Origin: a virus | Reading direction: 5' to 3' (one strand) | Virus record (IMG/VR): IMGVR_UViG_3300025705_000006 | Span: 1 to 51,380 of that record | DNA length: 51,380 bases | Shown: in pieces, positions 4,338 through 36,268 of the stretch | How positions within the stretch are numbered: position 1 is the first letter of the stretch | Layout of the letters: each line of letters opens with the position of its first letter | Notes under the pieces: model-generated | Database searches by the model: none | Told to the model about the DNA's origin: nothing | The model's input: the letters and a program-made list of their open reading frames with translations, nothing else | Position numbers and translations under genes: made by a program

Positions 4338-6755
4338 TTACATTAGTTTACCTTGTACTTCTAGTTCTTCTTTACCTCTGAATCGAATCCATCTTCCATC
4401 TCTGTCTCTACCCTCCTCTGGAGCACAACCAAATTTGTAATTAGCATATGCAACGAGCCACTTGTAGAATCTGTTTCTTGTTATAGACATCTTAGACTTG
4501 GGTGCATAATCTGGGTATTCAGATGTAAATTCTACATATAGAGTTTGCTTGTAGCTTTTTCTGTTTTTTGCAACCAATAGATTATCCATCTCTCCCTCAA
4601 TCAGACCACACCACTCTAAAAACTCATGGCTTGTTTCAACACCTAGGTTTCTTATCTCTTGGTTTACAGAATGAGATTTTAATAATCCTTTCCCAAGGTA
4701 TAGTTGTAGGTTTTGAATCATATAGTTATCAAACTGACACCACTCTGCATCATCCCAATCTCCAAACATTAATTTACCAAACTCATCTAATGGGGTACGA
4801 TTTTTATTATAGTGTTGACTAAGTTCCACCTCCCACTTTCTACGAGCAAATGAATTACCACTCCCTTTGATTGCATAGTTAGTAGTAATAGCTATCTTAG
4901 GTGATTTAGAAAATGGTATAGAGATGGCATCTTTATTTTTCTTCTCTAAGGTCATGCCCTCAGTAACAACAGAAAACAACCTTTCAAAGTCAAAGTATTT
5001 CTTAACATCATCAAACACAAGTATCTGTGTATCTGCTGACACTAATTGATATGCAAAGGAACGTTCAAAAGCAAACGACTTTCCATCAATCGTGACAACC
5101 TTTTTCATGTGTGATATTGCCTTCATAAAAATTCCCTTACCAGTTCCACCTTCAGGTGTGTCTGTTATAACCTCGTCATTTAATATAATAGCAGGACAAT
5201 AGCTTAAATTTTTGTGAGCATGAAGCATAAATCCAATGGTGCTTTCCATAGTTTTAATTCTCTTCTGCTCTTGTTCGCCTCCACAAATATTTTTTACAAA
5301 CGTTTGATATGTACAATTACCAACTTCACATATTTTAAATTTTCTATCAATGATATGGTCTCTCCATACATAACCTTCCAAATCTGAATACTCCATTATT
5401 TTTACAGAGTTTTTAGTTATTTCAACTGCACAATTATTATAATACAGATAAGCAGAATACTTAGTATCTTCAATAAAAAATATGTCAATTGTTTCTAGTA
5501 GTGTTAAAAACTCTTCTCTGAAAAACCTAACTGAATCTGCAAAATAATTATATATACTAATATCATCAAGGGTTAGTAGATGAGAAAGAACAAAATCTTT
5601 TATTTCTTTTTCAGATGTGTGATCTACTAAATTACTTTCTCTTTTAACAAACACATAGTTCTTACTTCCCTCTGGACAAAATTTAAAAAAACCTTTATCT
5701 TCTAAAAACCTTTTAAATTCTATGTGAACAATCTTAACAACTCCCTTGTCACTTTTAGTCCAAAATATATATTTGCTATTTTCATCTTCAACTTTATGTA
5801 TTACGGCATTAACTACATCGCCACCAACTGCCGTATCTTCAAATTGCTGACGAATCTCCTTTTTTGGTACTCCTCTTCTAAGTTGTTGTTTTATCTTACT
5901 TATTGCTACGTCATCCTCGTAATACTTAGTTCCAAAGTTTTGTCTGTTGGAGTACGCTGAGTCTATTGTTCTTTTAATTTCTTTTTGATTAAAATCTTTA
6001 CTTGCATACTGATTAAGAATGTAACCAGCTAAGGATGGCTGAACTCCATAATCATTAAAAGCCATTGCTAGTATGTAAACATTTTGGTTTCGTTGTCCTT
6101 CAGACATTGGGTATTTTTTTGTCCACCATTTAACTAGTATCTCAACTATTTTGTTTTCGTCTGTGATAGGTATTGTTGGTGAATCTGATGAGGTAAACTC
6201 TTTATACTCAATTTCAGCAACCTCATCCCATACAGATGAGTTTTTATTTAAAAATAGTAATGGATCATAAGACTCATAACAAACCCTACTTACATTCTTG
6301 CAAGTTTTGTCAAAGTATTTTGACTCATAATATTTTTCTAGTGCTATAAAATAATTTATATGGTTTTCTACATCTTGAGGTATCTTAACTATAACTTTCA
6401 ATCCATTACCACTTGGTGAAACAAAAACAGAATAAGTATATTTATCTTTTGTTAGTTTTTGCTTTTCAGATATCATAGTTTTTTGTTTCTCATATCCATC
6501 AAAATCTAAACATATAAAACCACTATGCTCGTTTAGTGAAGAATCTTTTCTGTTGGTAAATTTTCCTGAAAAACATATAGCTGGTAATTTTTTCTTTAGT
6601 TCGTTTCGATGGGTCTTATCTTTTTCTTTTCGAATGTTTTTAACTAGGTCTTTAGACTTCCCATTCTTTATTCTATCAAGTATTTTGTCTATGTTAACAT
6701 AGAATGGAGTGTCTGTTTCCTTAATGTTTCTAAATATTGTGATGTTCTGTGTCAT
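4338..6755 (-). CDS. Primase-helicase (BT4734/VirE-N-like primase plus D5-like SF3 helicase)
   Basis: An 805-residue replication protein. The N-terminal part (about 55-185) resembles the BT4734/VirE N-terminal archaeo-eukaryotic primase-like domain, with ICLDFDGY (81-88) and SPSGNGLKVIVKI (113-125). A PriCT/VirE-like helical stretch follows at about 215-275. The C-terminal ATPase is D5/SF3-like: Walker A GGTGKG (536-541), Walker B LVFDDV (579-584), motif C ITTNY (623-627), then a likely winged-helix tail. It would open origins and prime or unwind DNA for the phage. It is the first gene of the left - strand operon, directly downstream of the GTGACA/TCGTATAGGGA element. Confidence 0.88.
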   Translation of the reverse strand: MTQNITIFRNIKETDTPFYVNIDKILDRIKNGKSKDLVKNIRKEKDKTHRNELKKKLPAICFSGKFTNRKDSSLNEHSGFICLDFDGYEKQKTMISEKQKLTKDKYTYSVFVSPSGNGLKVIVKIPQDVENHINYFIALEKYYESKYFDKTCKNVSRVCYESYDPLLFLNKNSSVWDEVAEIEYKEFTSSDSPTIPITDENKIVEILVKWWTKKYPMSEGQRNQNVYILAMAFNDYGVQPSLAGYILNQYASKDFNQKEIKRTIDSAYSNRQNFGTKYYEDDVAISKIKQQLRRGVPKKEIRQQFEDTAVGGDVVNAVIHKVEDENSKYIFWTKSDKGVVKIVHIEFKRFLEDKGFFKFCPEGSKNYVFVKRESNLVDHTSEKEIKDFVLSHLLTLDDISIYNYFADSVRFFREEFLTLLETIDIFFIEDTKYSAYLYYNNCAVEITKNSVKIMEYSDLEGYVWRDHIIDRKFKICEVGNCTYQTFVKNICGGEQEQKRIKTMESTIGFMLHAHKNLSYCPAIILNDEVITDTPEGGTGKGIFMKAISHMKKVVTIDGKSFAFERSFAYQLVSADTQILVFDDVKKYFDFERLFSVVTEGMTLEKKNKDAISIPFSKSPKIAITTNYAIKGSGNSFARRKWEVELSQHYNKNRTPLDEFGKLMFGDWDDAEWCQFDNYMIQNLQLYLGKGLLKSHSVNQEIRNLGVETSHEFLEWCGLIEGEMDNLLVAKNRKSYKQTLYVEFTSEYPDYAPKSKMSITRNRFYKWLVAYANYKFGCAPEEGRDRDGRWIRFRGKEELEVQGKLM

Positions 6756-6776: not shown

Positions 6777-6820
6777 TTTTTTTTTCTGTAACTATCTGGT
6801 TATTAGTTTAGTGTTATTTT

Positions 6821-6915
6821 GTGACAATTTTTTACTATCGTATAGGGAATAAAAAAAATAAATATATAAAAAGTATATAAATATATAGAGATTGTTTTTT
6901 TGTCATATTCGTCAC
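6821..6915 (+). promoter_or_regulatory. GTGACA/TCGTATAGGGA element, left copy
   Basis: GTGACAATTT (6821-6830), 7 nt, TCGTATAGGGA (6838-6848), an A/T tract with TATATA runs, TTTGTCA (6899-6905) and GTCAC (6911-6915). The same blocks, with the same 17-nt and 61-nt start-to-start spacing, recur at 17218-17311. The outer boxes are inverted (GTGACAA versus TTTGTCA) around an AT-rich core. This fits an origin or operator (inference). It lies between the SSB terminator and the primase-helicase gene. Confidence 0.65.
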
Positions 6916-7467: not shown

Positions 7468-8191
7468 GACGATAATATTGATTTACATCATCCGTAGCAT
7501 CTTCTCCAAAAAATTTATTGTATACCTCGATTGCCTTCTGAACCTTTACTGCACCCTTCTCAATAAAGTCTGCCGTTGTTTCAAAGACTCCTAGCTGACC
7601 ATTAGTCTTATCTATTACGAGAAATTTTAGAGGCTTACCAAACAATGTATGGTATACGTATGCTTGACTATCGTAGTTGTATTTTGATGCACTATAAATG
7701 AATTTATTTATGTCACTTGTAGTTTTTATATCAATCAAACAGTCATTTGCACAAACTATATCTGCCTTACCTTTCCACATTACTCCTCCTATCTCTCCAA
7801 TTGCTGGAACTTCAAACTGATTACCATCAGCATATATCATATCGTAAAAGTCTAAGTTGGATGTCATAACCTTTGCAAGTTCTGTGATGTCATCATATTC
7901 TTTTTGTAGCAAAAGGAATGGCTCTTCAGACTCGGCTAATATTTCCTTGTACTTCTTTGTGTTTCTGCTTGACACATCTACTGCGTTCCAATCTTTAACT
8001 TTTTCTGGCTCTAAAATCAAGTGGTGAAACAATCTTCCTTTCGCAAAATTTATGTTGTCATCTTTCTGTACCCCAAATTCTTTTGGGTTTGAAAGTAATG
8101 CTCCAATATCACTATTGGAGAGATAGTTCTTACCTATCCCTCCGTAATATTCCTTGTCGTCTTTAAGTTGTTTGATTATTTTGTCTGACAT
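7451..8191 (-). CDS. RecE-like PD-(D/E)xK exonuclease
   Basis: A 246-residue nuclease of the exonuclease VIII/RecE (YqaJ-like) type. Visible motifs: GRLFHHLILEP (52-62) with the family His, GKAD with Asp144, LIDIKT with Asp154 and Lys156, and the YDSQAYVY motif (173-180) that caps the active site. Such enzymes resect one strand of duplex DNA to load an annealing protein. The gene directly upstream (8195-8887) is a DUF1071 annealing protein and the SSB lies downstream, so exonuclease, annealing protein and SSB form one recombination unit. Confidence 0.85.
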   Translation of the reverse strand: MSDKIIKQLKDDKEYYGGIGKNYLSNSDIGALLSNPKEFGVQKDDNINFAKGRLFHHLILEPEKVKDWNAVDVSSRNTKKYKEILAESEEPFLLLQKEYDDITELAKVMTSNLDFYDMIYADGNQFEVPAIGEIGGVMWKGKADIVCANDCLIDIKTTSDINKFIYSASKYNYDSQAYVYHTLFGKPLKFLVIDKTNGQLGVFETTADFIEKGAVKVQKAIEVYNKFFGEDATDDVNQYYRHVELI

Positions 8192-9578: not shown

Positions 9579-9727
9579 TCTACTGATATGTTTTGAGAGT
9601 TAATAATCTCGCCATGCTCTGCATCAGCTACCCATCTCCTAGCTTGATCTATATCGTCAGTGTATTTAGTTTCGGATGGTTGTGACCCACCATAATAAAG
9701 GTGGATAGTAAGTTTCATTTTCTTCAT
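9575..9727 (-). CDS. 50-residue small protein, first gene of recombination operon
   Basis: ATG at 9727 opens a 50-residue frame (MKKMKLTIHLYYGG... ending QNISVE) whose TGA at 9575-9577 overlaps the ATG of the DnaA-like gene. The composition suggests a small beta-alpha domain (KYTDDIDQARRWVADAEHG). A TATATTTG -7 box lies 18 bases upstream on this strand, so it is the first gene of the operon. Unknown function. Confidence 0.65.
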   Translation of the reverse strand: MKKMKLTIHLYYGGSQPSETKYTDDIDQARRWVADAEHGEIINSQNISVE

Positions 9728-9745
9728 AATTTGATTTAATTTAGA

Positions 9746-9753
9746 CAAATATA
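9746..9753 (-). promoter_or_regulatory. Bacteroidota-type promoter for recombination operon
   Basis: On the - strand TATATTTG matches the TAnnTTTG -7 box; the start codon is 19 bases downstream. A TTTTG lies about 14 nt upstream, shorter than the usual spacing to a -33 box. A strong terminator ends the preceding operon just upstream, which supports a new transcript starting here. Confidence 0.6.
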
Positions 9754-9870
9754 AGAAACTTATTGCACAAAAACTAGAAACCTTGCACTTAAATGAAACC
9801 TTGCATTATCATACGTTAGGGATTTTTTAGGGACTTCCTAAATCGGCATTTTTAGATTATAATCGGCAAT

Positions 9871-9925: not shown

Positions 9926-10132
9926 TTAAAATGGTAGGTTAATATTTATTTTTCTATACTCTTCGCCATCATTAAATTCCTTGATGGTTTTGTAGTTCGT
10001 GTCAAAATCTTCATTGTGTGCCTCAATAACTTGCTTTACCTCTTCGTAGTTAAATTCGTATGTCGCTGATGCGTCATCCGTTTCCGAGTAAACAAACACT
10101 ATTGGCTCATTTAATAATTTTTCGATTGTCAT
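9926..10132 (-). CDS. Hypothetical acidic protein (68 aa)
   Basis: A 68-residue, strongly acidic protein (ETDDASATYEFNYEEVKQ) ending NINLPF. It is the last gene of the early operon before the terminator. Its start codon is preceded by the recurring leader AACAATTAGAATTATG, which here also encodes the end of the methyltransferase-like gene (QLEL-stop). Small acidic early phage proteins are often DNA mimics or host-enzyme inhibitors, but nothing here proves that. Confidence 0.6.
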   Translation of the reverse strand: MTIEKLLNEPIVFVYSETDDASATYEFNYEEVKQVIEAHNEDFDTNYKTIKEFNDGEEYRKININLPF

Positions 10133-10770
10133 AATTCTAATTGTTTTTGGTTAATAATTGTAAATTGGGTAGCCATAGCTTTGGCTATTCCCTTGAATGT
10201 TTTACTTCGTAGCTTTGATCTCTCCGATGCATTTTTTGAATTTTTTAGTGCATCAAAGTACCACTTCGGTTGCCTTTTCTTGACTCCCTTTTTACTGATG
10301 AATTCTATAAACTCGCCTTTTTCTACAATATTCGTTGGAACAAGTAGAGGTAGGTTTTTAAGCCATAGGCACGTACTCTTTTGAGCCTTATCTCCAAACA
10401 TCCAAGGTTGTATTATTTGGCTAGGCTTTCGGTACTTTGTACTCATAATTCCAATAGGGTTTTCTACGCATATCTTGTCTATGGGTGCGTTAATCATCTC
10501 CATAAAAAAGTCTATACCTTGTTGTTGCCTACCATCCTTAATCTTCTGCTCAAAATGTCTAGCACCACTAACGGCTAAATGAGTGCAAGGTGGGAATGCA
10601 ATAAGCATATCCCAACCCTTGTGCAACTCCTTTAATAAATCGCCTTGTATGTGCCATTGTGGATATCCTCCACTACTCTCCATCACATCGCAACTGAATG
10701 CCTCGTGACCTAACTTACGTAACTCTATGGTTACGGCTTGTGATTCCTCACATCCTACTAATATTCTCAT
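10129..10770 (-). CDS. Cytosine-methyltransferase-like protein, copy 1
   Basis: A 213-residue Rossmann-type protein usually annotated as a DNA cytosine methyltransferase in phages. Motifs: N-terminal SAM-site start RILVGCEESQ (2-10), FPPCTHLAVSGA (59-70) containing the PPC catalytic-Cys loop (Cys62), and VENPIG (102-107) in place of the usual ENV. It is much shorter than restriction-type C5 methyltransferases and I see no separate target-recognition domain. Copy 2 lies immediately upstream, overlapping by 4 bases (ATGA). It could modify DNA cytosine or a nucleotide pool; the substrate is not decidable here. Confidence 0.75.
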   Translation of the reverse strand: MRILVGCEESQAVTIELRKLGHEAFSCDVMESSGGYPQWHIQGDLLKELHKGWDMLIAFPPCTHLAVSGARHFEQKIKDGRQQQGIDFFMEMINAPIDKICVENPIGIMSTKYRKPSQIIQPWMFGDKAQKSTCLWLKNLPLLVPTNIVEKGEFIEFISKKGVKKRQPKWYFDALKNSKNASERSKLRSKTFKGIAKAMATQFTIINQKQLEL

Positions 10771-11423
10771 AGTTTACATTTTAGCATTACTTCCTTGCAT
10801 AGTTCTGATGGTATCTTCGACCTCTCGTAGTTACCCTTCCGACCTTGAGTTCCACTTTGACTTCCTCTCGGTGCAGACTCGTGGTGGCAATTCTTGTTGC
10901 CATTGTGACATTCTGCTCTTGGCATCCATCCGTTTGGGTTATCCAATCCGTAGATAAAGTTACTCCAAATGTCTGTGGGTTTTGCCCTAGAATCTCCATA
11001 GGTGCAGTACCATATCGTTGTTCTTGGTAACTCCTGGACCACACTTAATTTACGTAACTTTCCTCTAGGATTCTCTATGAAAAACTTTAGGCTTGGATTT
11101 AGCTTTCTAAAGTGTTCAATTATATTCAAGGTAGACTGAACATACTCCACACCTTTAAGTGCGTTCTCCGACTTCGGTGTGTGGTCTTTATTCCAATGTT
11201 TGCCAATACTAGCAACAGAGAAATATGTGCATGGTGGAGATGCCCATATGACTGATGGAATGAATGGCACTTTTGATACATCAAAATTGTTGATGTCAAC
11301 TGCGTAATCAATCCCATCGAACTCATTGATGTCAGACGAAAATACTTCGTATCCTAACTTCTCTGCCTCCTTGCCAACACTCCTAGAGCCTCCGAATAAT
11401 TCTAATAATTTATCGCTTTTCAT
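10767..11423 (-). CDS. Cytosine-methyltransferase-like protein, copy 2
   Basis: A 218-residue protein with LLELFGGSRSVGKEAEKLG (6-24), the usual C5-methyltransferase motif I (FGG), then ASPPCTYFSVAS (61-72) with the catalytic-type PPC (Cys65), and FIENPRGKLRK (115-125) with ENP rather than ENV. Near the C-terminus GDSRAKPTDIWSN parallels GDKAQKSTCLWL in copy 1, so both share one architecture. The Cys/His-rich stretch (about 172-182: CHNGNKNCHH) may bind metal. The stop overlaps the start of copy 1, so the two are translated together. A heterodimer or two specificities are both possible. Confidence 0.75.
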   Translation of the reverse strand: MKSDKLLELFGGSRSVGKEAEKLGYEVFSSDINEFDGIDYAVDINNFDVSKVPFIPSVIWASPPCTYFSVASIGKHWNKDHTPKSENALKGVEYVQSTLNIIEHFRKLNPSLKFFIENPRGKLRKLSVVQELPRTTIWYCTYGDSRAKPTDIWSNFIYGLDNPNGWMPRAECHNGNKNCHHESAPRGSQSGTQGRKGNYERSKIPSELCKEVMLKCKL

Positions 11424-11539
11424 AGTTCGATAGGTTTTGAATAAAAATTATCATCAATGCAAATGTGTTCCATAATATCGCCATCATCATCTACGATATC
11501 ATAACAACATCTATCACAAGTTTTATACTCTGTACTCAT
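11420..11539 (-). CDS. Nested 39-residue Cys-containing protein from internal start
   Basis: ATG at 11539 is preceded by an exact copy of the leader that precedes at least ten other genes here, and lies in frame inside the 125-residue ORF. The product would be 39 residues with CDRCC and HIC motifs, possibly a minimal zinc knuckle. Independent initiation is inferred from the leader. Confidence 0.5.
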   Translation of the reverse strand: MSTEYKTCDRCCYDIVDDDGDIMEHICIDDNFYSKPIEL

Positions 11540-11797
11540 AATTCTAATTGTTTTTTGGTGTTCTCTCTGTTTATTCCACACATTTAATGTGTTGTTGATT
11601 AATGTTTCATACTCATCAAATTTTTCATTATAAAAATCTTGTGCTTCTTCAGTAAAGCAAAACTCCAACATTCTTGTCCCTTCTGTATTTACTTCTCTGT
11701 AAGTTTCTTCACCAAAATTCATCTCTGTAATTTGTGTAGCAATTTCATCTACACACTCTAAAAATTTACTATCACTTACTAATATTTTATTACTCAT
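11420..11797 (-). CDS. Hypothetical protein (125 aa), apparent fusion of two units
   Basis: A continuous 125-residue frame from ATG 11797. Residues 1-80 are acidic and helical (TQITEMNFGEETYREVNTEG). Residues 81-87 (QKTIRI and Met87) are encoded by a copy of the intergenic leader AACAATTAGAATTATG, which elsewhere lies between genes. The last 39 residues (CDRCCYDIVDDDGD) look like a separate small protein with a CxxCC pair. Either the frame is a genuine fusion or the upstream gene lost its stop while the internal start remained. The terminal stop overlaps the methyltransferase start. Confidence 0.6.
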   Translation of the reverse strand: MSNKILVSDSKFLECVDEIATQITEMNFGEETYREVNTEGTRMLEFCFTEEAQDFYNEKFDEYETLINNTLNVWNKQREHQKTIRIMSTEYKTCDRCCYDIVDDDGDIMEHICIDDNFYSKPIEL

Positions 11798-11802
11798 AAT
11801 TT

Positions 11803-12069
11803 CTAATTGTTTAATTGATTAATAAATTCTAATACTGCCCAATACACCTCACCAAAGTTACTATAAAGACTCAAGTCAATTAGTTCTTGTGGTACTCCTT
11901 CGCACTCAGCCTCAATTGTCTGTACAACTGGCATCAGCCAATCCCAAGACTTATGGAACTGCATTGGTGAAATAGTACCATCATTATGCTTTGGTGAATA
12001 GCATTTATTATGCTTTACATCATAACCCATAAATTCTGCTATTAACTTATTATTTTCCATTTCACTCAT
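11803..12069 (-). CDS. Conserved phage protein (88 aa)
   Basis: An 88-residue acidic protein with a Trp-rich centre (FHKSWDWLMPVVQTIEAE, about 38-55). I associate this pattern with conserved small proteins of Bacteroidota phages of unknown role, possibly the phage ABA sandwich domain. It ends INQLNN with the TAG inside the downstream leader motif. Its own 98-nt leader lacks that motif and instead carries a predicted three-way junction at 12118-12162. Function unknown. Confidence 0.65.
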   Translation of the reverse strand: MSEMENNKLIAEFMGYDVKHNKCYSPKHNDGTISPMQFHKSWDWLMPVVQTIEAECEGVPQELIDLSLYSNFGEVYWAVLEFINQLNN

Positions 12070-12117
12070 AATTTAAATCGCCCATTTTAGTCGGAAGGGA
12101 CTTTATCCTAGTTAGAT

Positions 12118-12162
12118 GTGGGATATGGTTTTGCTCCATACAAGTGCGTCTACGCATCCCAC
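12118..12162 (-). ncRNA. Predicted three-way-junction RNA leader
   Basis: On the - strand the 45 nt tile exactly as P1 GTGGGA / TCCCAC (6 bp), P2 TGCG-TAGA-CGCA (4 bp), linker CTTG, P3 TATGG-AGCAAAA-CCATA (5 bp), with no other unpaired junction bases. It sits in the only long gap between two small early genes, 48 nt upstream of the 11803-12069 start codon. It may be a cis-regulatory RNA or processing site. On the + strand the same fold is followed by seven T and could terminate antisense transcripts. Confidence 0.45.
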
Positions 12163-12167
12163 TTTTT

Positions 12168-12317
12168 TTAGTCTAGAAATACCTCATCTAGAGAGTATCC
12201 AAACTTTGTCCTACATATGTAGTTAATGAAATTATCCATATGTTTCTCGTCAGCAAACTCTTTGGTAACGTACCAATCTTTTGCTCTGTCTGTTCTAAAT
12301 TTTAAGGTCGCTTTCAT
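12168..12317 (-). CDS. 49-residue small protein
   Basis: ATG at 12317 overlaps the stop of the gene upstream (12314-12316), and the frame ends with TAA at 12168-12170. The 49 residues (MKATLKFRTDRAKDWYV... ending SLDEVFLD) have a beta-alpha-like pattern (KEFADEKHMDNFINYI). The tight overlap and position in the operon argue for a real gene. It is reminiscent of small conserved phage proteins, but I cannot name a family. Confidence 0.65.
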   Translation of the reverse strand: MKATLKFRTDRAKDWYVTKEFADEKHMDNFINYICRTKFGYSLDEVFLD

Positions 12318-12667
12318 AGGCTTGAAAAGTTAAATATACTTGTCTTTGCTTTATAATATATCCATATGATTTTGTCGATGTATTCCACATCTCCATCTTC
12401 TTGGAGTTGAAGATCAAAAGGTAGTTCGTCATTTTTCATCTCATCAAAGAACGTACTCAATGCCCTATCTTCAACGCAATATTCATCCTTGAATAGTTCG
12501 TACTCATCGCCTTGCATAAAGTTTAAGCCAATCCAATTATCTTCGTGTTTCTCGATGTATATCCATCGGTCTGATGGCTGATGCCATATGTGGTTTACTT
12601 CTACTATCGTACATTCTCTTAATTCCAACGTTGGTTGGAGGTTACTTTTTCTAATAATCTGTTTCAT
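12314..12667 (-). CDS. Hypothetical protein (117 aa)
   Basis: A 117-residue acidic protein rich in Trp and Glu (HIWHQPSDRWIYIEKHEDNW). The leader AACAATTAGAAAG precedes the ATG. Several Trp and aromatic residues in short strands suggest a beta-rich fold. No family recognised. Member of the early small-gene operon. Confidence 0.6.
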   Translation of the reverse strand: MKQIIRKSNLQPTLELRECTIVEVNHIWHQPSDRWIYIEKHEDNWIGLNFMQGDEYELFKDEYCVEDRALSTFFDEMKNDELPFDLQLQEDGDVEYIDKIIWIYYKAKTSIFNFSSL

Positions 12668-12671
12668 CTTT

Positions 12672-12914
12672 CTAATTGTTTTTTAAATTGTTAAATAAAT
12701 CTCCAAAGCAAACCCAATCTATACCCTCGTCATAGTTGTCTGCAAATATCCAATTAGGAATACCATTTTTTGTGTGGTATTTCCTAACTAGAGATTCTAA
12801 TTCATCACTTGTTCGGCTCATACTCCATATTTTTTTGCCTTTTAGAGTATTGAGAAGAAACAAACCTACTTGTTCATTTTCTTCATTGACATATGTTAAA
12901 TTTTGTGTTTTCAT
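12672..12914 (-). CDS. Hypothetical protein (80 aa)
   Basis: An 80-residue protein starting after the leader AACAATTAGAATTATG. It ends NNLKNN-stop, with its TAG supplied by the next leader. Residues 28-60 (KIWSMSRTSDELESLVRKY) look like a helical segment followed by an aromatic tail (NWIFADNYDEGIDWVCFG). No family recognised. Confidence 0.6.
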   Translation of the reverse strand: MKTQNLTYVNEENEQVGLFLLNTLKGKKIWSMSRTSDELESLVRKYHTKNGIPNWIFADNYDEGIDWVCFGDLFNNLKNN

Positions 12915-12918
12915 AATT

Positions 12919-13179
12919 CTAATTGTTTTTATTGGTTATTTTAATTTGTTCAACTTCATCTTGCTTGAGACCTAGCAAGGAATTTACCTCATCGTGTATT
13001 TCGTCTTGAATTTCAAAGGGATAATCTCCTTCTTCATACTTTATAAATTCATTGTCGATTAGGTACTCTACTATTGTGATGGCTACATCTCTTGTATCAT
13101 CGTAAGTAACTACTTTCTCTTTATTCATAACTCTCTCTCTATTGAGACTTTCACGAATTGCTTTTTCTAGTTCTGTCAT
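12919..13179 (-). CDS. Hypothetical acidic protein (86 aa)
   Basis: An 86-residue, mostly helical acidic protein (AITIVEYLIDNEFIKYEEGD). It is preceded by AACAATTAGAAATTATG and ends NKNN-stop with the TAG inside the next leader. No catalytic motif. Likely a small early phage protein of unknown function. Confidence 0.6.
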   Translation of the reverse strand: MTELEKAIRESLNRERVMNKEKVVTYDDTRDVAITIVEYLIDNEFIKYEEGDYPFEIQDEIHDEVNSLLGLKQDEVEQIKITNKNN

Positions 13180-13200
13180 AATTTCTAATTGTTTTAATGG

Positions 13201-13539
13201 TTATAAACTTCTTGCTTTTTCTATTACGGCAGTTCCACTATTAATGGTCTTTAGGATGCCATCCCAATCGCCTTCTAGAGCCATCCAACATAGGTCATCA
13301 GCACTAGCTTTAAAGCCTCCTCCAGTTGCACCACAACCGAACTGATAGTTGCTCATTGCGTTGCCCATTCCACTAGGAAGAACTGACCATACCTTCCAAA
13401 AATCTTCTGTCTTTATAAACTTGATTTCTGAACGATTGTCGCACATACACGATACCATTTTTAAGGTAACTCTCTTTGGATTTTTTACCACCTCTAGTGT
13501 TGGTGGATTGTGTCTTAATTCTCGATAATAATTTTTCAT
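13201..13539 (-). CDS. Hypothetical protein (112 aa) with Gly-rich loop
   Basis: A 112-residue protein. It contains a CMCDN segment (31-35) and a glycine-rich stretch around 68-77 (FGCGATGGGF) that could form a ligand-binding loop. I do not recognise the family. The leader AACAATTAGAATTATG precedes the ATG, and its TAA stop begins the next stop/start module. Confidence 0.6.
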   Translation of the reverse strand: MKNYYRELRHNPPTLEVVKNPKRVTLKMVSCMCDNRSEIKFIKTEDFWKVWSVLPSGMGNAMSNYQFGCGATGGGFKASADDLCWMALEGDWDGILKTINSGTAVIEKARSL

Positions 13540-13557
13540 AATTCTAATTGTTAAAGG

Positions 13558-13962
13558 TTAATCTATTAATTTTATTTGGTTTATATCATACACCATTTCA
13601 TCACACATTGTATCATATCCTTCCATAATATACATAGGCAATTCATCTCTTTCGTCTAACATTTGTTCGACATTGTACTCAATTTTTCCATTCTTTTTTA
13701 ATTCATTAAGGAAATATGTTCCCCAATATTTTTGGTCATCAAAGTCGCTGAACATCCAATCCAAAAACCTTGATTTTTTTAATTTGTATTTCGTACTTGT
13801 TTTTAAATGATTATTAAATAGTTCATTGTTCTGTTCGTTGATATGCATCTGTACTTCCATTAGGTTGTCTACATTATACATAACATTGTGTACTTCTTTA
13901 CCGACAAATGTTGTCAGTGTTCCATCACCATCTAAGGTGTAATCTGTGATTGCTTTTGCCAT
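13558..13962 (-). CDS. Hypothetical protein (134 aa)
   Basis: The frame is open to 14031, but the start is placed at ATG 13962 because the standard leader AACAATTAGAACG directly precedes it and the extra upstream codons fall in a structured leader (element A). The 134-residue product is acidic and helical, with FLDWMFSDFDDQKYWGTYF near the centre. No family recognised. Probably translated under control of the upstream RNA element. Confidence 0.65.
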   Translation of the reverse strand: MAKAITDYTLDGDGTLTTFVGKEVHNVMYNVDNLMEVQMHINEQNNELFNNHLKTSTKYKLKKSRFLDWMFSDFDDQKYWGTYFLNELKKNGKIEYNVEQMLDERDELPMYIMEGYDTMCDEMVYDINQIKLID

Positions 13963-14033
13963 CGTTCTAATTGTTTTAAATGCAAGGCAATATCGCCTTG
14001 TACCACCAAAACCTCGCACATTTCTGTGCAAGG
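13963..14033 (-). ncRNA. Structured leader, element A
   Basis: On the - strand: hairpin CCTTGCACA-GAAA-TGTGCGAGG (14033-14012, one G-T pair), linker TTTTGGTGGTA, hairpin CAAGGC-GATATT-GCCTTG (14000-13983), then AAAACAATTAGAACG and the ATG at 13962. Element B (15001-15070) has the same order, the same GAAA loop, the shared GGTTTTGGTGGT and compensating stem changes, which supports a functional RNA structure. Confidence 0.6.
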
Positions 14034-14057
14034 CATTTGATGAGGTTGAGGTTGTTT

Positions 14058-14366
14058 TTACAACTCTATCTCGTTATTGGTTAGTCCCTCGATTAGTGCC
14101 TTGCGATTAGAGTGGTCTGCTCTTTTCCAAGCCTCTGTAAACGTGCCTCTGCAAATTGCAGTCATAAAGCCTCCTAATCCATCTACAAGTTGATTCTTGC
14201 GTTCTATGGATGCAATCTCCTCGATGAGAGTGTGAGCCGTTCCACAACAAGAGCCGTTGTCAGAATAGTTAGCGATTGCTACAAGCATTGTGTAGTTCTT
14301 GTAGGTGATTCCTTGTGGTAGATATCCCTTTGGAAATCCACTTCTTAATTTGATTTTTGTAGTCAT
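14058..14366 (-). CDS. Hypothetical basic protein (102 aa)
   Basis: A 102-residue protein starting MTTKIKLRSGFPKGYLPQG. A central GSCCGTAH segment (about 37-44) is followed by helices. The leader is a variant of the module (AACCAATAGAAATTATG). No family recognised; the early-operon location is the only clue. Confidence 0.6.
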   Translation of the reverse strand: MTTKIKLRSGFPKGYLPQGITYKNYTMLVAIANYSDNGSCCGTAHTLIEEIASIERKNQLVDGLGGFMTAICRGTFTEAWKRADHSNRKALIEGLTNNEIEL

Positions 14367-14371
14367 AATTT

Positions 14372-14767
14372 CTATTGGTTTAATTTATTATATTCTTCTT
14401 CAGTTATTACGGCAAAGTCGTTCATCCCTTGAGCCTCATATAAGAGGTCTGTGGGAGTGTCTTTGCTTTGGTCATAGCAGTAAGTAAGGTATCCGACTTC
14501 GTTGTTCTCGTATTCCTCAATTAAGGCATCTAATCCTTCATCTTCAAGTATCCGAACTGCACCATCTCCAAAGAGATAGTAAGCCTTCTGATAGTGAGTC
14601 TTGTTGAAGAACTTTTTTAGTAGCATATTCATGAACTCGTAGTCGGTTTCGTTTAATGCCTTGTCATTATTTGCAAGGTCATTGTCTTGAAGAATCTCAA
14701 GCAGTTCGACTTGGATTGCGTCAATCGTGTTGTCGTGTAGTTGTTCTAAAATTTGTTCTGTAGTCAT
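14372..14767 (-). CDS. Hypothetical acidic protein (131 aa)
   Basis: A 131-residue, strongly acidic and mostly helical protein, starting MTTEQILEQLHDN. The leader AACAATTAGAAATTATG precedes it. No catalytic motif recognised. Highly acidic early proteins can act as DNA mimics, but there is no specific evidence here. Confidence 0.6.
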   Translation of the reverse strand: MTTEQILEQLHDNTIDAIQVELLEILQDNDLANNDKALNETDYEFMNMLLKKFFNKTHYQKAYYLFGDGAVRILEDEGLDALIEEYENNEVGYLTYCYDQSKDTPTDLLYEAQGMNDFAVITEEEYNKLNQ

Positions 14768-14772
14768 AATTT

Positions 14773-15000
14773 CTAATTGTTAATTGGGTTAATAAATGTT
14801 TCTAATACTTGCACTACGGCTTGGTTTGATACGAATGGATTTACTCTTGCTCCACTCGTGATTTTTTGCACCTCCTTTACCCTCTGCTCGATGAGTTGTT
14901 GCAACTCAATTACTAGGATAGTTGATGCTAATGTTCCAAGTCCTTTTACGTCTTTGTGACCTCGTTTGATCCTTTGGTCGTTGTTTAAATTTTTACTCAT
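14773..15000 (-). CDS. Hypothetical protein (75 aa)
   Basis: A 75-residue protein with a basic N-terminus (DQRIKRGHKDVKGLG) and a helical remainder (ILVIELQQLIEQRVKEVQK). It ends INPINN-stop with TAG in the next leader. Its own leader carries structured element B and AACAATTAGAAAA before the ATG. Unknown function. Confidence 0.6.
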   Translation of the reverse strand: MSKNLNNDQRIKRGHKDVKGLGTLASTILVIELQQLIEQRVKEVQKITSGARVNPFVSNQAVVQVLETFINPINN

Positions 15001-15070
15001 TTTTCTAATTGTTTTAAAGTGAAAACGTCATTGCTTTCACCACCAAAACCCCACTATTTTCATAGTGAGG
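15001..15070 (-). ncRNA. Structured leader, element B
   Basis: On the - strand: hairpin CCTCACTAT-GAAA-ATAGTGGGG (15070-15049, one G-T pair), then GGTTTTGGTGGT overlapping hairpin GTGAAAG-CAATGACG-TTTTCAC (15040-15019), then TTTAAAACAATTAGAAAA and ATG at 15000. Compared with element A, four base pairs of the first stem change on both sides while pairing is kept. Confidence 0.6.
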
Positions 15071-15099
15071 CGAATACTGGAAATTGGTGTTTTGGAGGA

Positions 15100-15672
15100 C
15101 TAAATCGTGTAGATTGTATCCATCCCTTTTTCAGTAATATGTGCCATTGCTCCACCATCATTTCCTTCGTCATCCATCTGTGGAAACAATAAACTTCCAT
15201 CACTCATCTCAAAGACAATGGAACTCCTACCCCAAGCTAAGTATTGCATCTCATTAGGGGTCATATAACGAACTCTAGTGATGGTAAGTCCACTCAAGTG
15301 TTGGAACTTGTCTGCGTGAAGGATGTGAGGTGGCAGAGCCTTTCTATTAGCCTCTCTTTTAGCCTTGCGTCTGTCAAGCACGTTCTTGTTGTTCTCACGT
15401 ATCAAGGCAACTCCTTCTTCGTAACTGCAAGTAGCGAACTCATTGCCGACTTTGGTTAGCTTGTAGTGACCTCTTGACTGCCTCTCGATTAGACGTTCAT
15501 AGTCATTCCAATTCTTGATGTTGATGCCGTAATAACCTTGTCTGTAGGTGAACTCATCTGCCTTAAATCCTTGAGCATTCCATACGGCTTTTTGGATGTC
15601 TTTTCTAGTGAACTCATTGCCACCAAATCTGTTCGATAATTCTCTAAATACTGATTGCTTAATTGTCTTCAT
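15100..15672 (-). CDS. Hypothetical protein (190 aa), possible N-terminal winged helix
   Basis: A 190-residue protein. Residues 1-80 read like a small DNA-binding helical domain (FRELSNRFGGNEFTRKDIQK, then SRGHYKLTKVGNEFA). Residues 90-112 are a basic linker. The C-terminal part (about 125-185: TRVRYMTPNEMQYLAWG, then GSLLFPQMDDEGNDGG) resembles a domain I associate with phage and plasmid hypothetical proteins. The leader AACAATTAGAATTATG precedes the ATG. A regulator is possible; not proven. Confidence 0.62.
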   Translation of the reverse strand: MKTIKQSVFRELSNRFGGNEFTRKDIQKAVWNAQGFKADEFTYRQGYYGINIKNWNDYERLIERQSRGHYKLTKVGNEFATCSYEEGVALIRENNKNVLDRRKAKREANRKALPPHILHADKFQHLSGLTITRVRYMTPNEMQYLAWGRSSIVFEMSDGSLLFPQMDDEGNDGGAMAHITEKGMDTIYTI

Positions 15673-15692
15673 AATTCTAATTGTTTTAATGG

Positions 15693-15956
15693 TTAAACGT
15701 ATTTTAATACTTGTGTGTAAATTGGTTTCTTTGTGATGGTAAGTCTTATTCTCTCACCAATCTCCACCACAAATTGTTCGTCATCTGTAGTTCCAATGTT
15801 CAGCACATCTGCTGAAGATAAGTCTAGATTTTTCATCCAATATTCTCGGAGATATGCAAGTGAATCTAGTGCAGTTTTCTTGCTTGAAAAGTCAATGTTC
15901 TCAAAGCAAAATCCGTTCTTTAGGTCAAAGCCGTAAATGTTATAAATGTTTCTCAT
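15693..15956 (-). CDS. Hypothetical protein (87 aa)
   Basis: An 87-residue protein with alternating beta/alpha pattern (NIYNIYGFDLKNGFCFENID, then STKKTALDSLAY-like helix). Its leader is a variant (AACAACTAGAATTATG) that also supplies the TAG stop of the gene upstream. No family recognised. Confidence 0.6.
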   Translation of the reverse strand: MRNIYNIYGFDLKNGFCFENIDFSSKKTALDSLAYLREYWMKNLDLSSADVLNIGTTDDEQFVVEIGERIRLTITKKPIYTQVLKYV

Positions 15957-15960
15957 AATT

Positions 15961-16134
15961 CTAGTTGTTTAAGGTTAAAAGGTTAAGTTTAAATTTAGTT
16001 CTGTTCCACCACGTAAAGTGTTGGTATTCTTCTTCAGTGAAGATTTCTGTTCTGATGATATCACTACCATCTTGCCTTGTCTGTAATGCGTGTAATCCAC
16101 TCGGCAATACAATGTGTTTGAGTATTCTGTTCAT
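15961..16134 (-). CDS. 57-residue small protein
   Basis: ATG at 16134 with leader variant AACCAATTAGAACT; TAG at 15961-15963 lies within the next leader. The 57 residues (MNRILKHIVLPSGLHAL... ending LLTLNN) include EEEYQHFTWWNRTKF, which looks like a helix-strand pair. The stop/start module on both sides strongly suggests translation. No family recognised. Confidence 0.65.
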   Translation of the reverse strand: MNRILKHIVLPSGLHALQTRQDGSDIIRTEIFTEEEYQHFTWWNRTKFKLNLLTLNN

Positions 16135-16148
16135 AGTTCTAATTGGTT

Positions 16149-16292
16149 TTATTGGTTATTAATTATTTCCTCAATTGAGTCGTTGGTGTAGCAAAGAACT
16201 TTGTTACAATAGAAAGATTCTATCTGTTCTTGACTAGGATTGGTCGACATAAAGTCGATAACTGCTCTGCGTAAGTTGTTGTAATTCTTCAT
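16149..16292 (-). CDS. 47-residue small protein, first gene of early operon
   Basis: ATG at 16292, TAA at 16149-16151, 47 residues (MKNYNNLRRAVIDFM... ending EEIINNQ). It is the first gene of the long - strand early operon and, unlike its neighbours, lacks the AACAATTAGAA leader (AATCACAGAATTATG instead). No family recognised. Confidence 0.6.
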   Translation of the reverse strand: MKNYNNLRRAVIDFMSTNPSQEQIESFYCNKVLCYTNDSIEEIINNQ

Positions 16293-17112: not shown

Positions 17113-17311
17113 TTGTGACAGACTAGTATAGTTTATTATAATATTGTGACAAATAAATGACAGTTTTGTGACGAATTTAAATACTTAACTATTTGATAAT
17201 TAGTATTGTGACAGTTTGTGACAATTTAAAAGGGTCGTATAGGGAGTAGTATTTATAAAAGGAGGAAAAAATATATATATATATAGGGAAAAAAGTTTGT
17301 CACCTTGTCAC
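17113..17311 (+). promoter_or_regulatory. GTGACA iteron array and TCGTATAGGGA element, right copy
   Basis: TTGTGACA boxes at 17113-17120, 17144-17151, 17206-17213 and 17216-17223, plus TTGTGACG at 17166-17173. Then TCGTATAGGGA (17235-17245), an A/T tract including a TA run, TTTGTCA (17296-17302) and GTCAC (17307-17311). Layout and spacing match the left copy at 6821-6915. The last box abuts the -33 element of the groEL promoter, so binding there could regulate groEL. Origin or operator (inference). Confidence 0.65.
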
Positions 17312-17315
17312 AGGT

Positions 17316-17344
17316 TTTGAAATGGAATAATTATTGTATCTTTG
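17316..17344 (+). promoter_or_regulatory. Consensus Bacteroidota promoter of groEL
   Basis: TTTG (17316-17319), 17 nt, TATCTTTG (17337-17344), 26 bases before the ATG at 17371. Both boxes match the Bacteroidota primary sigma consensus. Confidence 0.82.
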
Positions 17345-17370
17345 TATGTATAACATTTAAATCAAATCAA

Positions 17371-18993
17371 ATGAATAATCCAATGGGAGGGTATTCACCT
17401 AAAGAACTTACGATAGGTGTAGACTCACAAAAGAAACTTCTTCAAGGTATCTCTATGATATCAAGTGCAGTTAAGAGCACACTAGGACCTATGGGTCAAA
17501 CAGTAATAATTGAATCACCTCATCACACTCATGGAATGACAGTCACCAAGGATGGTGTAACTGTTGCTAAGAGTTATGACATGGCAGACCCTGTAGGTAA
17601 TCTTGCCGTAAAGATGATGAAGGAAGCATCAGCTAGAACTGCTACCTCAGCAGGTGATGGGACTACTACTGCTATAGTGTTGACAGAGGCGTTAGTCAAA
17701 CAGGGATTGCAAAAGATTACTGGTGATGTAAACAAGACAGAAGTTCTAAGACATCTAGCAAGTGAGACTGAAGGGTTGGTTAAGTCTTTAAAGAAGGAAA
17801 GTAAGAAGGTAACAAAGAAGAGGTTAGTTGATGTAGCAACTATATCAGCCAATAACGACAAGGTTATAGGGAAGATAATCTCTGACTGCTACAACGATGT
17901 TGGCAAGAACGGCATAGTCACTGTTGAGAACTCACCGACACCAGAGACTTTTTATGAAACCACGAAAGGTATTAAGATAGATAAGGGATATTCGTCACCG
18001 ATGTTTATCAACCACCAAAAGAAAGACGAGTGTATATTGGAAGATGTGCATATACTAGTATGTGATGCAGAGATCAGTAACATACTTCAGATAGAGAATG
18101 TGTTGAAACCAATCATACAAGATAAGAAAAAATTATTAATTATATCACCATGTACTACCAATGTGATAGCCACTTTGGCTGCCAATGTTCAGAAGAGGGG
18201 GTTACACTTATGTACAGTTCCACCACCAAACTTTGGATATCGTCAGCATGAGCTGATGCAGGACATTGCGTTGTCGGTAGGAGCTACATATTTTTCGGAG
18301 AAGACAGGTGACGATTTAAGCCTCATTGAATTTACAGACTTAGGGTTTGCTTCCAGGGTGATAGTTGGGAGAGACTCTTCTGTAATTTTAAGTGAGGCTG
18401 AGGAAAACAAGGATGTGGACCAAAGGGTAGCTGAGTTGTGGGATGCACATAAAGTGACAAAGCAGAAGCACGACAAGGATTTTATTCTGCAGCGAATCGC
18501 CTCCTTGACAGGAGGGATAGGGGTTATCCATGTAGGAGGTAACACAGACCTTGAGCAGAAAGAGTTGTATGACAGGGTAGACGATGCAGTGTGTGCAGTA
18601 CGTTCAGCTTTAGAGGAGGGAATACTTCCAGGAGCAGGAATGGCACTAGCAAAAATATGTGCACCCTTTCACTTCAAGAGAAATGAAAAAAAGGAAACCA
18701 AGGAGCTTATGGTAGCGAGAGATATTATGTACAATGCCCTGCAAGCTCCATGGAGACAGATACTTATAAACGCAGGTCTAGAACCTGATGATATTCTTAA
18801 AGACCACTACCTTAGTGGATTTGATTATGGGTATGATTTAAAGACTAAGGAATATGGTGACCTAATAGAGATGGGTGTCATTGACCCTACCAAGGTGACT
18901 AGGTCGGCTCTTCAAAATGCAGTGTCTGTTGCAGTAACTATTTTATCAACCAATGCCATTATTACAATGGCTAGAACATACGAAAGCGAATGA
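17371..18993 (+). CDS. groEL: Phage-encoded GroEL chaperonin (HSP60)
   Basis: A 540-residue group I chaperonin, full length for the family. The start is placed at ATG 17371 rather than an upstream in-frame codon at 17305, because the promoter lies in between. The ATP-site motif AGDGTTTA is at 94-101 and TVTKDGVTVAKSY at 57-69. The equatorial GILPGAGMALAK and the VDDAVCAVRSALEEG helix are present. The C-terminus ends ARTYESE with no GGM tail. It would assemble as a 14-mer to fold phage proteins, probably capsid or tail. groES follows with a 4-base overlap, the reverse of the bacterial groES-groEL order. Confidence 0.95.
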   Translation: MNNPMGGYSPKELTIGVDSQKKLLQGISMISSAVKSTLGPMGQTVIIESPHHTHGMTVTKDGVTVAKSYDMADPVGNLAVKMMKEASARTATSAGDGTTTAIVLTEALVKQGLQKITGDVNKTEVLRHLASETEGLVKSLKKESKKVTKKRLVDVATISANNDKVIGKIISDCYNDVGKNGIVTVENSPTPETFYETTKGIKIDKGYSSPMFINHQKKDECILEDVHILVCDAEISNILQIENVLKPIIQDKKKLLIISPCTTNVIATLAANVQKRGLHLCTVPPPNFGYRQHELMQDIALSVGATYFSEKTGDDLSLIEFTDLGFASRVIVGRDSSVILSEAEENKDVDQRVAELWDAHKVTKQKHDKDFILQRIASLTGGIGVIHVGGNTDLEQKELYDRVDDAVCAVRSALEEGILPGAGMALAKICAPFHFKRNEKKETKELMVARDIMYNALQAPWRQILINAGLEPDDILKDHYLSGFDYGYDLKTKEYGDLIEMGVIDPTKVTRSALQNAVSVAVTILSTNAIITMARTYESE

Positions 18994-22563: not shown

Positions 22564-24903
22564 ATGTATATATCCATTGCAGTAGGTATAGGATCTTCAA
22601 CATCCTCAGCAATTGGTGCAGGGGGTGGTGGTTCTCTGCCTCTAACTGACGCTACATTTAATCAAGCGATTACAGATATATTAGCACAAGACCCCAATGG
22701 GGATTACGACCTAGCACCCTATGGTAAAATTCAAAATTGGAACGTTAGCCAAGTAACAAATATGTCATTTGCTTTTAACCAAGCAACATTTAATGGGAAC
22801 ATTAGCGCTTGGGATACAAGGAGTGTAACTAATATGAGGTTTATGTTTTCTGGAGCTCTAGCTTTCAACCAACCAATAGGTAATTGGGATGTAAGCAAGG
22901 TAACTAATATGGAATCTATGTTTAGTGATGCTTTGGCTTTTAACCAATCCCTAGCAGGTTGGAATGTTAGTAGCGTTATTGACATGAATAATATTTTTGA
23001 AAATTGTTTTGCTTTTAACGGTGCTATTGGCAATTGGAATGTTGGCAGCGTGGAAAATATGAACTCTATGTTTTTAATGGCTACTTCTTTTAATCAAGCT
23101 ATTGATTCCTGGAATACAAGCAGTGTTACTGACATGAATAGTATGTTTGAAGATGCAACTATATTTGATCAGCCTTTAGACTCTTGGGATGTGAGTAAGG
23201 TCACTAATATGAGATATATGTTTATTTCTACTGATAATTTTAATCAGTCTTTAAATAACTGGGATGTTAGTAGCGTTACTGATATGTTGGGTATGTTTAA
23301 GAATGCAACTTCATTTGATAAATCTTTAAACAGTTGGGATGTTAGCCAAGTTACAAATATGTTTAGCATGTTTGAAGATGCTACATCATTTAACGGAAAC
23401 ATTAGTTCTTGGGACACTAGCAACGTGAACAACATGCAAGAGATGTGGAAAGACGCAACAAGTTTTAACCAAGATTTAAGTGGTTGGAGTGTGAGTAATG
23501 TTAGTAATTACACTGACTTTGATACTAATACACCAAGTTGGACATTACCCAAACCACCTTTTGTAAATCCTAATCAATTAACTGATGCAACATTTCAAAC
23601 TGCAATTAATGATATACTAGCTCAAGACCCTAATGGAGATTATGACCTTGTTCCTTATGGAAAGATACAAGATTGGGATGTTAGCCAAGTTACAAATATG
23701 TCTAATGCTTTTTTTAACAAAAGCTCGTTTAATGGCGATATTAGTGCTTGGGACACAAGTAGTGTGACTAACATGAATACTATGTTTAGGAATGCTTCTG
23801 TTTTTAATCGAAACTTAAATTCTTGGGATGTCAGCAGTGTAACTAATATGTTTTCTATGTTTAGGGATGCTTCTGTTTTTAATGGCGATATTACAAGTTG
23901 GAATACAGGTAGTGTTACTGGTATGGGCGATATGTTTTATGATGCAAATGCTTTTAATCAAGATATAGGTTCTTGGGATACTGGTAGTGTAACTAGTATG
24001 ACTAATATGTTTAGGAGTAGTTCTATTTTTAATCAAGATATAGGTTCTTGGGATGTAAGTAATGTGACTAATATGTATGGTATGTTTCAAAGTGCTATTG
24101 CTTTTGATCAACCTATTGGAAATTGGGACACGAGTAGTTTAATGTTTATGAACCAAATGTTTACAGATGCTAATGTTTTTAATCAGCCTCTTGATAATTG
24201 GGATGTGAGTAGTGTAGAGAATATGGGTAGTATGTTTAATGGAGCATTAGTTTTTGACCAACCATTAAACTCTTGGGACACGAGTAGTGTTCTTCAAATG
24301 AATAATGTGTTTTATCGAGCATTTGATTTTAACCAAGACATAAGTGGATGGGATGTGAGTAATGTGACTAATATGAGTAGTATGTTTAGAGATGCAGATT
24401 CATTTAATCAAAATATCGGTTCTTGGGATGTGAGTAGTGTGACTAAGATGGATTGGATGTTTTATGGTAATACTGCTTTTGACCAACCATTAAACAATTG
24501 GGATACAAGTAGTGTGACTACTATGTATAATATGTTTGGTTTTGCTACTGTTTTTAATCAACCGATTGGTAATTGGGATACAAGCAGTGTTACTGATATG
24601 AATCAAATGTTTTCCAATACTATTTTCAATCAAGATATAAGTTCTTGGGATGTAAGTAATGTGACTACTATGATGAATATGTTTATACAAAACAAAGTTT
24701 TTAATCAAGATATAAGTTCTTGGGATGTGAGTAGTGTTACTAATATGAGATTGATGTTTTTGGTTACAACTCCTTCTGCAATGAATCAAGACTTAAGTGG
24801 TTGGAGTGTGAATCCAAATGTTACTAATTGTAGTGGTTTTAGTGATGGAACTTCTGCAACTTGGACACAACCAAAACCTAATTTTACTTCCTGTACCCCA
24901 TAA
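22564..24903 (+). CDS. DUF285/BspA-type repeat protein, candidate receptor-binding protein
   Basis: A 779-residue protein made of about 25 repeats of 25 residues (consensus [16 protein letters not shown]), the DUF285 (BspA-like) family. After a Gly/Ser-rich N-terminus (1-26), block 1 (27-338) has about 10 repeats and block 2 (339-779) about 15. Each block opens with [23 protein letters not shown] and ends with a SW/TW-x2-PKP motif, so the array has been duplicated as a unit. DUF285 proteins are surface adhesins in bacteria; on a phage the likely role is host binding. No signal peptide was seen. Confidence 0.85.
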
Positions 24904-26964: not shown

Positions 26965-26993
26965 CCTCTGTTAATTCAGGGGTATTTTTTTTT
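26961..26993 (+). terminator. Strong intrinsic terminator
   Basis: AATACCTCTG (26961-26970), loop TTAATT, CAGGGGTATT (26977-26986) with one T-G pair, followed by T7. Confidence 0.88.
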
Positions 26994-26996
26994 GAT

Positions 26997-27004
26997 TATA
27001 TTTG
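26997..27004 (+). promoter_or_regulatory. TATATTTG promoter for packaging operon
   Basis: -7 box directly after the terminator and 20 bases before the ATG at 27025. No clear -33 element. Confidence 0.6.
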
Positions 27005-27024
27005 TATAAATTAAATCTAATTAA

Positions 27025-27255
27025 ATGAATGATATTCGTAAGATAGCAGTTGGTCCTGATTACAAAGGAGGAGCTATGCATTATGTTGTTGGGCAAGAAA
27101 TATTAAAAGGTACTTACAAAATACATCACATAAGATATGATGAAAATGTAGATGCCTTTAAAATATGGATTGAATCCACATATAACAAAGAAATTGTTTT
27201 GTGGAAGCAGTTTATTAATATGCCTGTATCTGTCGAATATAATATTAACTTCTAA
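27025..27255 (+). CDS. Hypothetical protein (76 aa)
   Basis: A 76-residue beta-rich protein starting MNDIRKIAVGPDYKGGAMHY. It is the first gene after the 26997 promoter; its stop overlaps the next ATG (taATG). I associate the pattern with a small conserved phage protein of unknown function near terminase genes. No motif. Confidence 0.6.
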   Translation: MNDIRKIAVGPDYKGGAMHYVVGQEILKGTYKIHHIRYDENVDAFKIWIESTYNKEIVLWKQFINMPVSVEYNINF

Positions 27256-32733: not shown

Positions 32734-32760
32734 TGTCTAAAATCGGTATTATTTTTTTCT

Positions 32761-32768
32761 TATATTTG
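32761..32768 (+). promoter_or_regulatory. TATATTTG promoter before scaffold/capsid
   Basis: -7 box 20 bases upstream of ATG 32789. It follows the portal stop with no strong terminator between. No -33 TTG is obvious. Confidence 0.6.
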
Positions 32769-32788
32769 TAGTAATCAAATTTAATCAT

Positions 32789-36210: not shown

Positions 36211-36240
36211 GAGGTCTTTTTTGAGACCTCTTTTTTTTTT
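36211..36240 (+). terminator. Strong intrinsic terminator
   Basis: GAGGTCT (36211-36217), loop, AGACCTC (36224-36230), then ten T. Confidence 0.92.
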
Positions 36241-36243
36241 GAT

Positions 36244-36251
36244 TATCTTTG
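36244..36251 (+). promoter_or_regulatory. TATCTTTG promoter for tail operon
   Basis: -7 box 4 bases after the terminator T run and 17 bases before ATG 36269. It begins the connector/tail transcript. Confidence 0.65.
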
Positions 36252-36268
36252 TGTAAATAATAGTTAGG

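Follow-up and report, generated by a model that had tools for sequence, protein, structure and literature searches.

The window analysed here, a 51,380-nucleotide stretch from an IMG/VR viral record, raises the question of what signal is shared by two of its gene junctions on the minus strand. Leader A (15099-15001) lies between the genes at 15100-15672 and 14773-15000, whereas leader B (14057-13963) lies between those at 14058-14366 and 13558-13962. Both are only 95-99 nt long and present the same order of elements, namely, a GAAA hairpin (P1), the sequence GGTTTTGGTGGT, and a second hairpin (P2), after which the next gene starts. The first-pass annotation described two 9-bp GAAA hairpins, and the sequences confirm both, with CCTCACTAT-GAAA-ATAGTGGGG in A and CCTTGCACA-GAAA-TGTGCGAGG in B. 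The comparison of A with B also verified that pairs 5, 7, 8, and 9 differ on both sides while pairing is kept, and that a single T.G pair is present per copy, at position 3 in A and position 4 in B. P1 of copy A is GCCTCACTAT-GAAA-ATAGTGGGGT, with 10 bp when the closing G.U is counted (15048..15071, minus strand), and P1 of copy B is GCCTTGCACA-GAAA-TGTGCGAGGT (14011..14034, minus strand). The genes 5' and 3' of copy A encode 190 and 75 amino acids, both with no family match; those around copy B encode 102 and 134 amino acids, the latter with a weak match to phrog_30812. The distance from the upstream stop codon to P1 is 29 nt in A and 24 nt in B. Exact GGTTTTGGTGGT was found in the window at 15050-15039 and 14013-14002, with no third site. 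The leaders had folding z-scores of -3.8 and -4.9, and none of 200 shuffles folded equally well. A covariance model of the element, R1, detected just these two sites in the window (E ~1e-18), the next match having an E value of 0.08.

The first-pass annotation took the leaders for a selected RNA structure of an unrecognised type, a view against which an absence of further homologues or of covariation would have spoken. Neither was the case. At least 50 more copies were found in viral contigs, usually one to four per phage, and in these the stems differ and pairing persists. In total, 68 non-redundant copies were recovered from at least three phage gene-content groups, and the window had no match in Rfam 15 at the gathering cut-off. 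The IMG/VR scan used the pattern CCT-N6-GAAA-N6-RGGTTTTGG, which fixes pairs 1-3 only, and matched 65 contigs. The tail continued as TGGT or GGGT in 52 of these, all of which had at least eight of the nine pairs; the 13 contigs with no such continuation had between 3 and 8. Among 32 distinct stem sequences, 99% of the cells pair and the covariation score was 0.68 as compared to 0.26 for shuffled data; this alignment was itself picked for pairing, and the scans provide the cleaner evidence. In a further test, new loci were chosen by tail sequence alone, ignoring the stem, which resulted in 17 non-redundant copies. P1 or a close variant was present in all 10 non-coding copies, one of which (L382) is weak and incomplete, and most of the remaining 7 could be read as coding matches; stop codons were mostly 10-26 nt upstream. 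With the R1 model, each source phage had between one and four copies, often grouped within 3 kb; some of these have a different loop or a changed tail and were beyond the reach of the patterns. The hairpin shape is thus clearly kept by selection in many uncultured viruses, and we consider the RNA structure itself, as distinct from its mechanism, near-certain.

P1 is usually 9-10 bp long, often with a GAAA loop, although some copies have only 5-6 bp, and nearly all copies have a G.U wobble as their third or fourth pair. These G.U pairs, together with the constant orientation with respect to the genes, argue for an RNA rather than a DNA cruciform. An inverted repeat capable of forming a cruciform next to a conserved sequence is what would be expected of a DNA element, such as an N4-like virion polymerase hairpin promoter or a recombination site. 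N4-type promoters, however, are Watson-Crick DNA hairpins, whereas nearly all stems contain G.T at position 3/4. Considering also the fixed orientation, the fixed spacing from the stop codon, and the occurrence in dissimilar phages, a DNA element is highly improbable.

GGUUUUGGUGGU, which follows P1, is conserved and forms the 3' side of an outer helix, P0, whose 5' strand is variable and A/C-rich. The sequence GGTTTTGGTGGT had been placed between the hairpins, and it is indeed exact in both copies, but folds and shuffle tests indicate that it pairs with the upstream strand and is no linker. Taken together, P0 and P1 amount to a single long, irregular hairpin. In the minimum free energy (MFE) fold of copy A, CACCAA (15084..15089, minus strand), past the stop of the gene at 15100-15672, pairs with UUGGUG (15046-15041) of the conserved GGTTTTGGTGGT (15039..15050, minus strand). 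In copy B, whose variable strand reads CAUCAAA, UCAUCAAA (14036..14043, minus strand) pairs with UUUGGUGG, the 3' strand being positions 14010-14003 of the conserved sequence at 14002..14013 (minus strand).

Across the family, the A/C-rich strand past the upstream stop pairs with conserved UUUGGUGGU, and P0 has a mean length of 6.6 bp. With the upstream 28 nt included, the 68 copies had a mean MFE of -23.5 kcal/mol, as compared to -20.5 (sd 0.3) with these 28 nt shuffled. The mean ensemble energy was -24.5 versus -22.5 (z -7.9) for shuffles in which the upstream dinucleotides were kept and the last three bases fixed. When each copy was ranked against its own shuffles, 26 of the 68 were in the best 10% (6.8 expected). 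The most enriched upstream 4-mer was CACC, present in 28 of 68 copies versus 9.6 expected, and the most enriched upstream words included CACC, ACCA, CCACC, and CACCA, each of which is complementary to the tail. A purine precedes P1 in 67 of the 68 copies and pairs with the first U. The register of P0 differs between copies; a fixed-register pairing test was weak (z up to 2.3 in any single register), and the support for P0 comes from the energy and k-mer tests. Several deviating tails show matched changes, namely, ACACG/CGUGU (L281), ACUACC/GGUAGU (L079), and CACCU/AGGUG (L283), although the consensus tail would pair equally well overall. P0 is therefore well supported as an ensemble feature rather than pair by pair.

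The region between the tail and the next gene is less uniform. The second hairpin seen by the first-pass annotation is present in both leaders, as GTGAAAGC-AATGAC-GTTTTCAC in A (15019..15040, minus strand) and CAAGGCG-ATAT-TGCCTTG in B (13983..14000, minus strand), both according to the fold. However, only roughly a third of the family contains P2, often as GGCAATAGTGCC and with other stems elsewhere, mostly in copies with the ATG 34-42 nt past the tail. The A-rich start region comes last and is outside the folded structure. Its AAAACAATTAGAA, initially counted as part of the leader, proved to be generic: it precedes many operon genes, with 7 exact and about 8 near-exact copies. With small variations it is found directly 5' of the ATG in more than 10 early genes at 10132-16149 of the window (minus strand). 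It looks like the translation start context of the operon, outside the element. Further repeats precede genes elsewhere in the window, of the form TTATATTTGTA...ATTAAAT at 9726-9758, 26985-27046, 32749-32810, and 36232-36293, and resemble the -7 box TAnnTTTG of Bacteroidota promoters. The window also encodes, at 17305-18993 and 22564-24903, a GroEL-like chaperonin and a protein whose gene has ~19 repeats of 75 nt.

The element is intercistronic. The initial description as an early-operon leader does not hold, as the element is also located 3' of major capsid genes. The upstream genes include those for HK97 major capsid, ArdC-type anti-restriction, and DUF932 proteins. The downstream genes are mostly small and have no known function, with start codons about 10-44 nt beyond the tail; a few resemble DNA methylases by eye (ELFSGSRSIGK), a kind of protein that the window also encodes (phrog_757). 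In 49 of 65 copies, P1 begins 18-24 nt past the stop of the upstream gene. This spacing is maintained even where the upstream gene differs: relatives of the window, L299 among them, contain an extra 87-amino-acid gene directly 5' of copy B, and their DNA match breaks at the stop adjoining it, yet copy B is retained, with stop distances of 24 versus 26 nt.

Such tight spacing could reflect coupling, in which the ribosome that ends the upstream gene would open or restore P0, or be held nearby, and so set re-initiation. Bacteroidia ribosomes do not use Shine-Dalgarno pairing, which makes other coupling devices plausible (PMC9976891). In 50 of 58 copies, however, P0 has its outermost base 9 nt or more beyond the stop, so that folding is possible beside a terminating ribosome, and the onset of P0 is mostly out of its reach. 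The distance to the next ATG varies widely, and Watson-Crick matches between the tail and one Bacteroidota 16S gene did not exceed 7 nt, besides the usual short matches that contain wobbles. Ribosome coupling is therefore quite unlikely.

The carrier viruses probably infect Bacteroidota. For the window, this host is suggested by its nearest annotated phages, which are those of Flavobacterium, Polaribacter, Cellulophaga, Nonlabens, and others. Of 16 sampled records, window included, 12 share many genes and form one group related to Flavobacterium elemoviruses. Almost none of the genes of this main group were found in G015, G016, G029, and, in part, G026, and a further set of carriers has the element behind capsid genes. 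BLAST comparison of the predicted ORFs of the window and 15 sampled carriers, which are incomplete records, revealed no gene family common to all, a result that suggests the involvement of a host factor or of some property intrinsic to the RNA.

Outside uncultured viral contigs, the element was scarce. The covariance model search that the first-pass annotation proposed for Bacteroidota phage genomes was successful in viral contigs, where R1 found matches, but not in eight annotated phages, mostly isolates, nor in the examined part of MW202828. The latter is the nearest annotated relative, with a 68% identical primase, and has a perfect palindrome, GTGTCGTTAACGACAC, shortly 5' of the next ATG in seven gene junctions (6477-6573, 6799-6840, 7594-7631, 7884-7925, 9651-9708, 10927-10962, and 11872-11907). 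A BLAST search of the INPHARED phage collection with the element returned no real match, at a sensitivity that is low for so short a query. In host collections covering 84,980 species genomes, 13 matches were obtained, of which one was real, namely, L241, from a contig assigned to an Aliivibrio MAG. For one class, reached via a Bacteroidota MAG, 295 genomes were covered, and the matches examined consisted of terminators, unrelated hairpins, coding tail matches, and one partial look-alike; this look-alike, CCTCGCTGCGAAAGCAGCGGGGTTTTGGTCGT, is located 3' of a gene in host genome G254 (L321, 1501-1538) and has no GGTGGT tail. Two other routes to homologues were abandoned: GGTTTTGGTGGT combined with AAAACAATTAGAA as a search key yielded only near-identical relatives and chance coding matches, and protein-based relatives of the two downstream genes led to close relatives only.

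A phage or host RNA-binding protein could bind the hairpin and the conserved strand as an operator and control downstream translation. One strand is conserved in sequence while its partner and P1 vary, and several copies per phage resemble a regulon. Nevertheless, the start codons lie ~10-44 nt past the tail in an open A-rich stretch, with nothing obvious masked, and no common phage gene was seen across the groups; a translational operator is unlikely. Start masking in general is unlikely, given how open the start region is and how its distance varies.

Comparison with known systems showed partial likenesses. A comparison of five loci with Rfam at E<=1 gave nothing beyond an unrelated tRNA and a chance miRNA match, both away from the motif, and a search of the open-access literature returned no description of it. 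The T-box core (AGGGUGGNACCGCG) contains GGUGGUA, as does the element, which, however, has no Stem I, specifier loop, or ACCGCG; the window leaders of 95-99 nt contain neither Stem I with a specifier loop nor a T-box sequence and did not match Rfam. The lambda nut boxB is a GNRA-type hairpin behind a gene within a phage operon, but in nut, boxA is 5' of boxB, whereas the element has its conserved sequence on the 3' side and an outer helix. The element is thus a new family among intercistronic phage RNA hairpins, marked by its distinctive conserved strand.

Among host signals, the element resembles Bacteroidota intrinsic terminators, which share the GC-based stem, the frequent GAAA loop followed by T, and the placement after a stop codon. 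P1 is a stable GC stem, as expected of a terminator, and its CC/GG base, loop, and following T resemble those of real Bacteroidota terminators (L322, L323). Three such terminators (L322, L323, and L330) have P1-like stems of the form CCTCACCAT-GAAA-ATGGTGAGG-TTTTTTT, and going by these sequences, the phage element may have derived from a terminator. A leaky terminator behind the T7 capsid gene offers a model for a tuned terminator or pause site, at which P1 and UUUU would make the host RNA polymerase halt or pause part of the time and lower the output of the downstream gene. In agreement with this main rival, the element is found 3' of capsid genes, and in phages of this kind, canonical terminators are located at a similar distance from the stop (median 26 nt). 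However, only 24% of these lie within 18-24 nt of the stop, as compared to 75% for the element. In place of the ~6-8 nt U-rich tract of intrinsic terminators, the element has only four U, or AUUU in some copies, then the conserved, upstream-pairing GGUGGUA; it sits within operons and was not flagged by a terminator scan. Moreover, the selection on P0 concerns RNA past the termination point. Since P0 requires the whole tail to be transcribed, and since the short U4 is followed by GGUGG, a post-transcriptional function is favoured over simple termination. A tuned terminator is somewhat unlikely.

T7 RNase III sites are irregular hairpins of ~50-60 nt between phage operon genes, where they separate messages, and the element resembles the R1.1 type in being an irregular hairpin at such a position. 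It differs in its shorter duplex, in the strict sequence conservation of its 3' strand, and in that cleavage is only putative. A single cut close to the 3' end of T7 R1.1 gives products of 47 and 13 nt (PMC4858673). In the element, P1 and P0 add up to ~16 bp, and less in some copies, which is short for the interrupted duplex of ~20 bp of a classical site and may speak against RNase III, as the resemblance of P1 to host terminators speaks against processing. The strict conservation of UUUUGGUGGUA is also unexplained by RNase III alone.

Based on the layout similar to T7 RNase III sites and its presence in unrelated phages, we tentatively favour processing or stabilisation, in which the element would be a host-recognised, cis-acting signal on the finished polycistronic phage mRNA; this reading falls somewhat short of an even chance. 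The UUUUGGUGGUA strand at the hairpin base would be read by a factor that is probably of host origin, given that the element occurs in unrelated phages in which no common gene was seen. If this strand were cleaved or protected, the upstream message, such as that for capsid or anti-restriction proteins, and the downstream message would have separate fates. It is possible, if rather doubtful, that the element represents a novel class among the intercistronic RNA signals of phages, shared by phages that otherwise differ in gene content, in which UUUUGGUGGUA is read by a ribonuclease or RNA-binding protein of the Bacteroidota host.

Little is known of how phages of Bacteroidota adjust the output of genes relative to one another within long operons. 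In hosts that do not use Shine-Dalgarno signals, an element recurring between genes of different phages, both structured and marked by sequence, provides a concrete handle on this question, as a defined RNA that can be probed, mutated, and used as bait for its binding partner.
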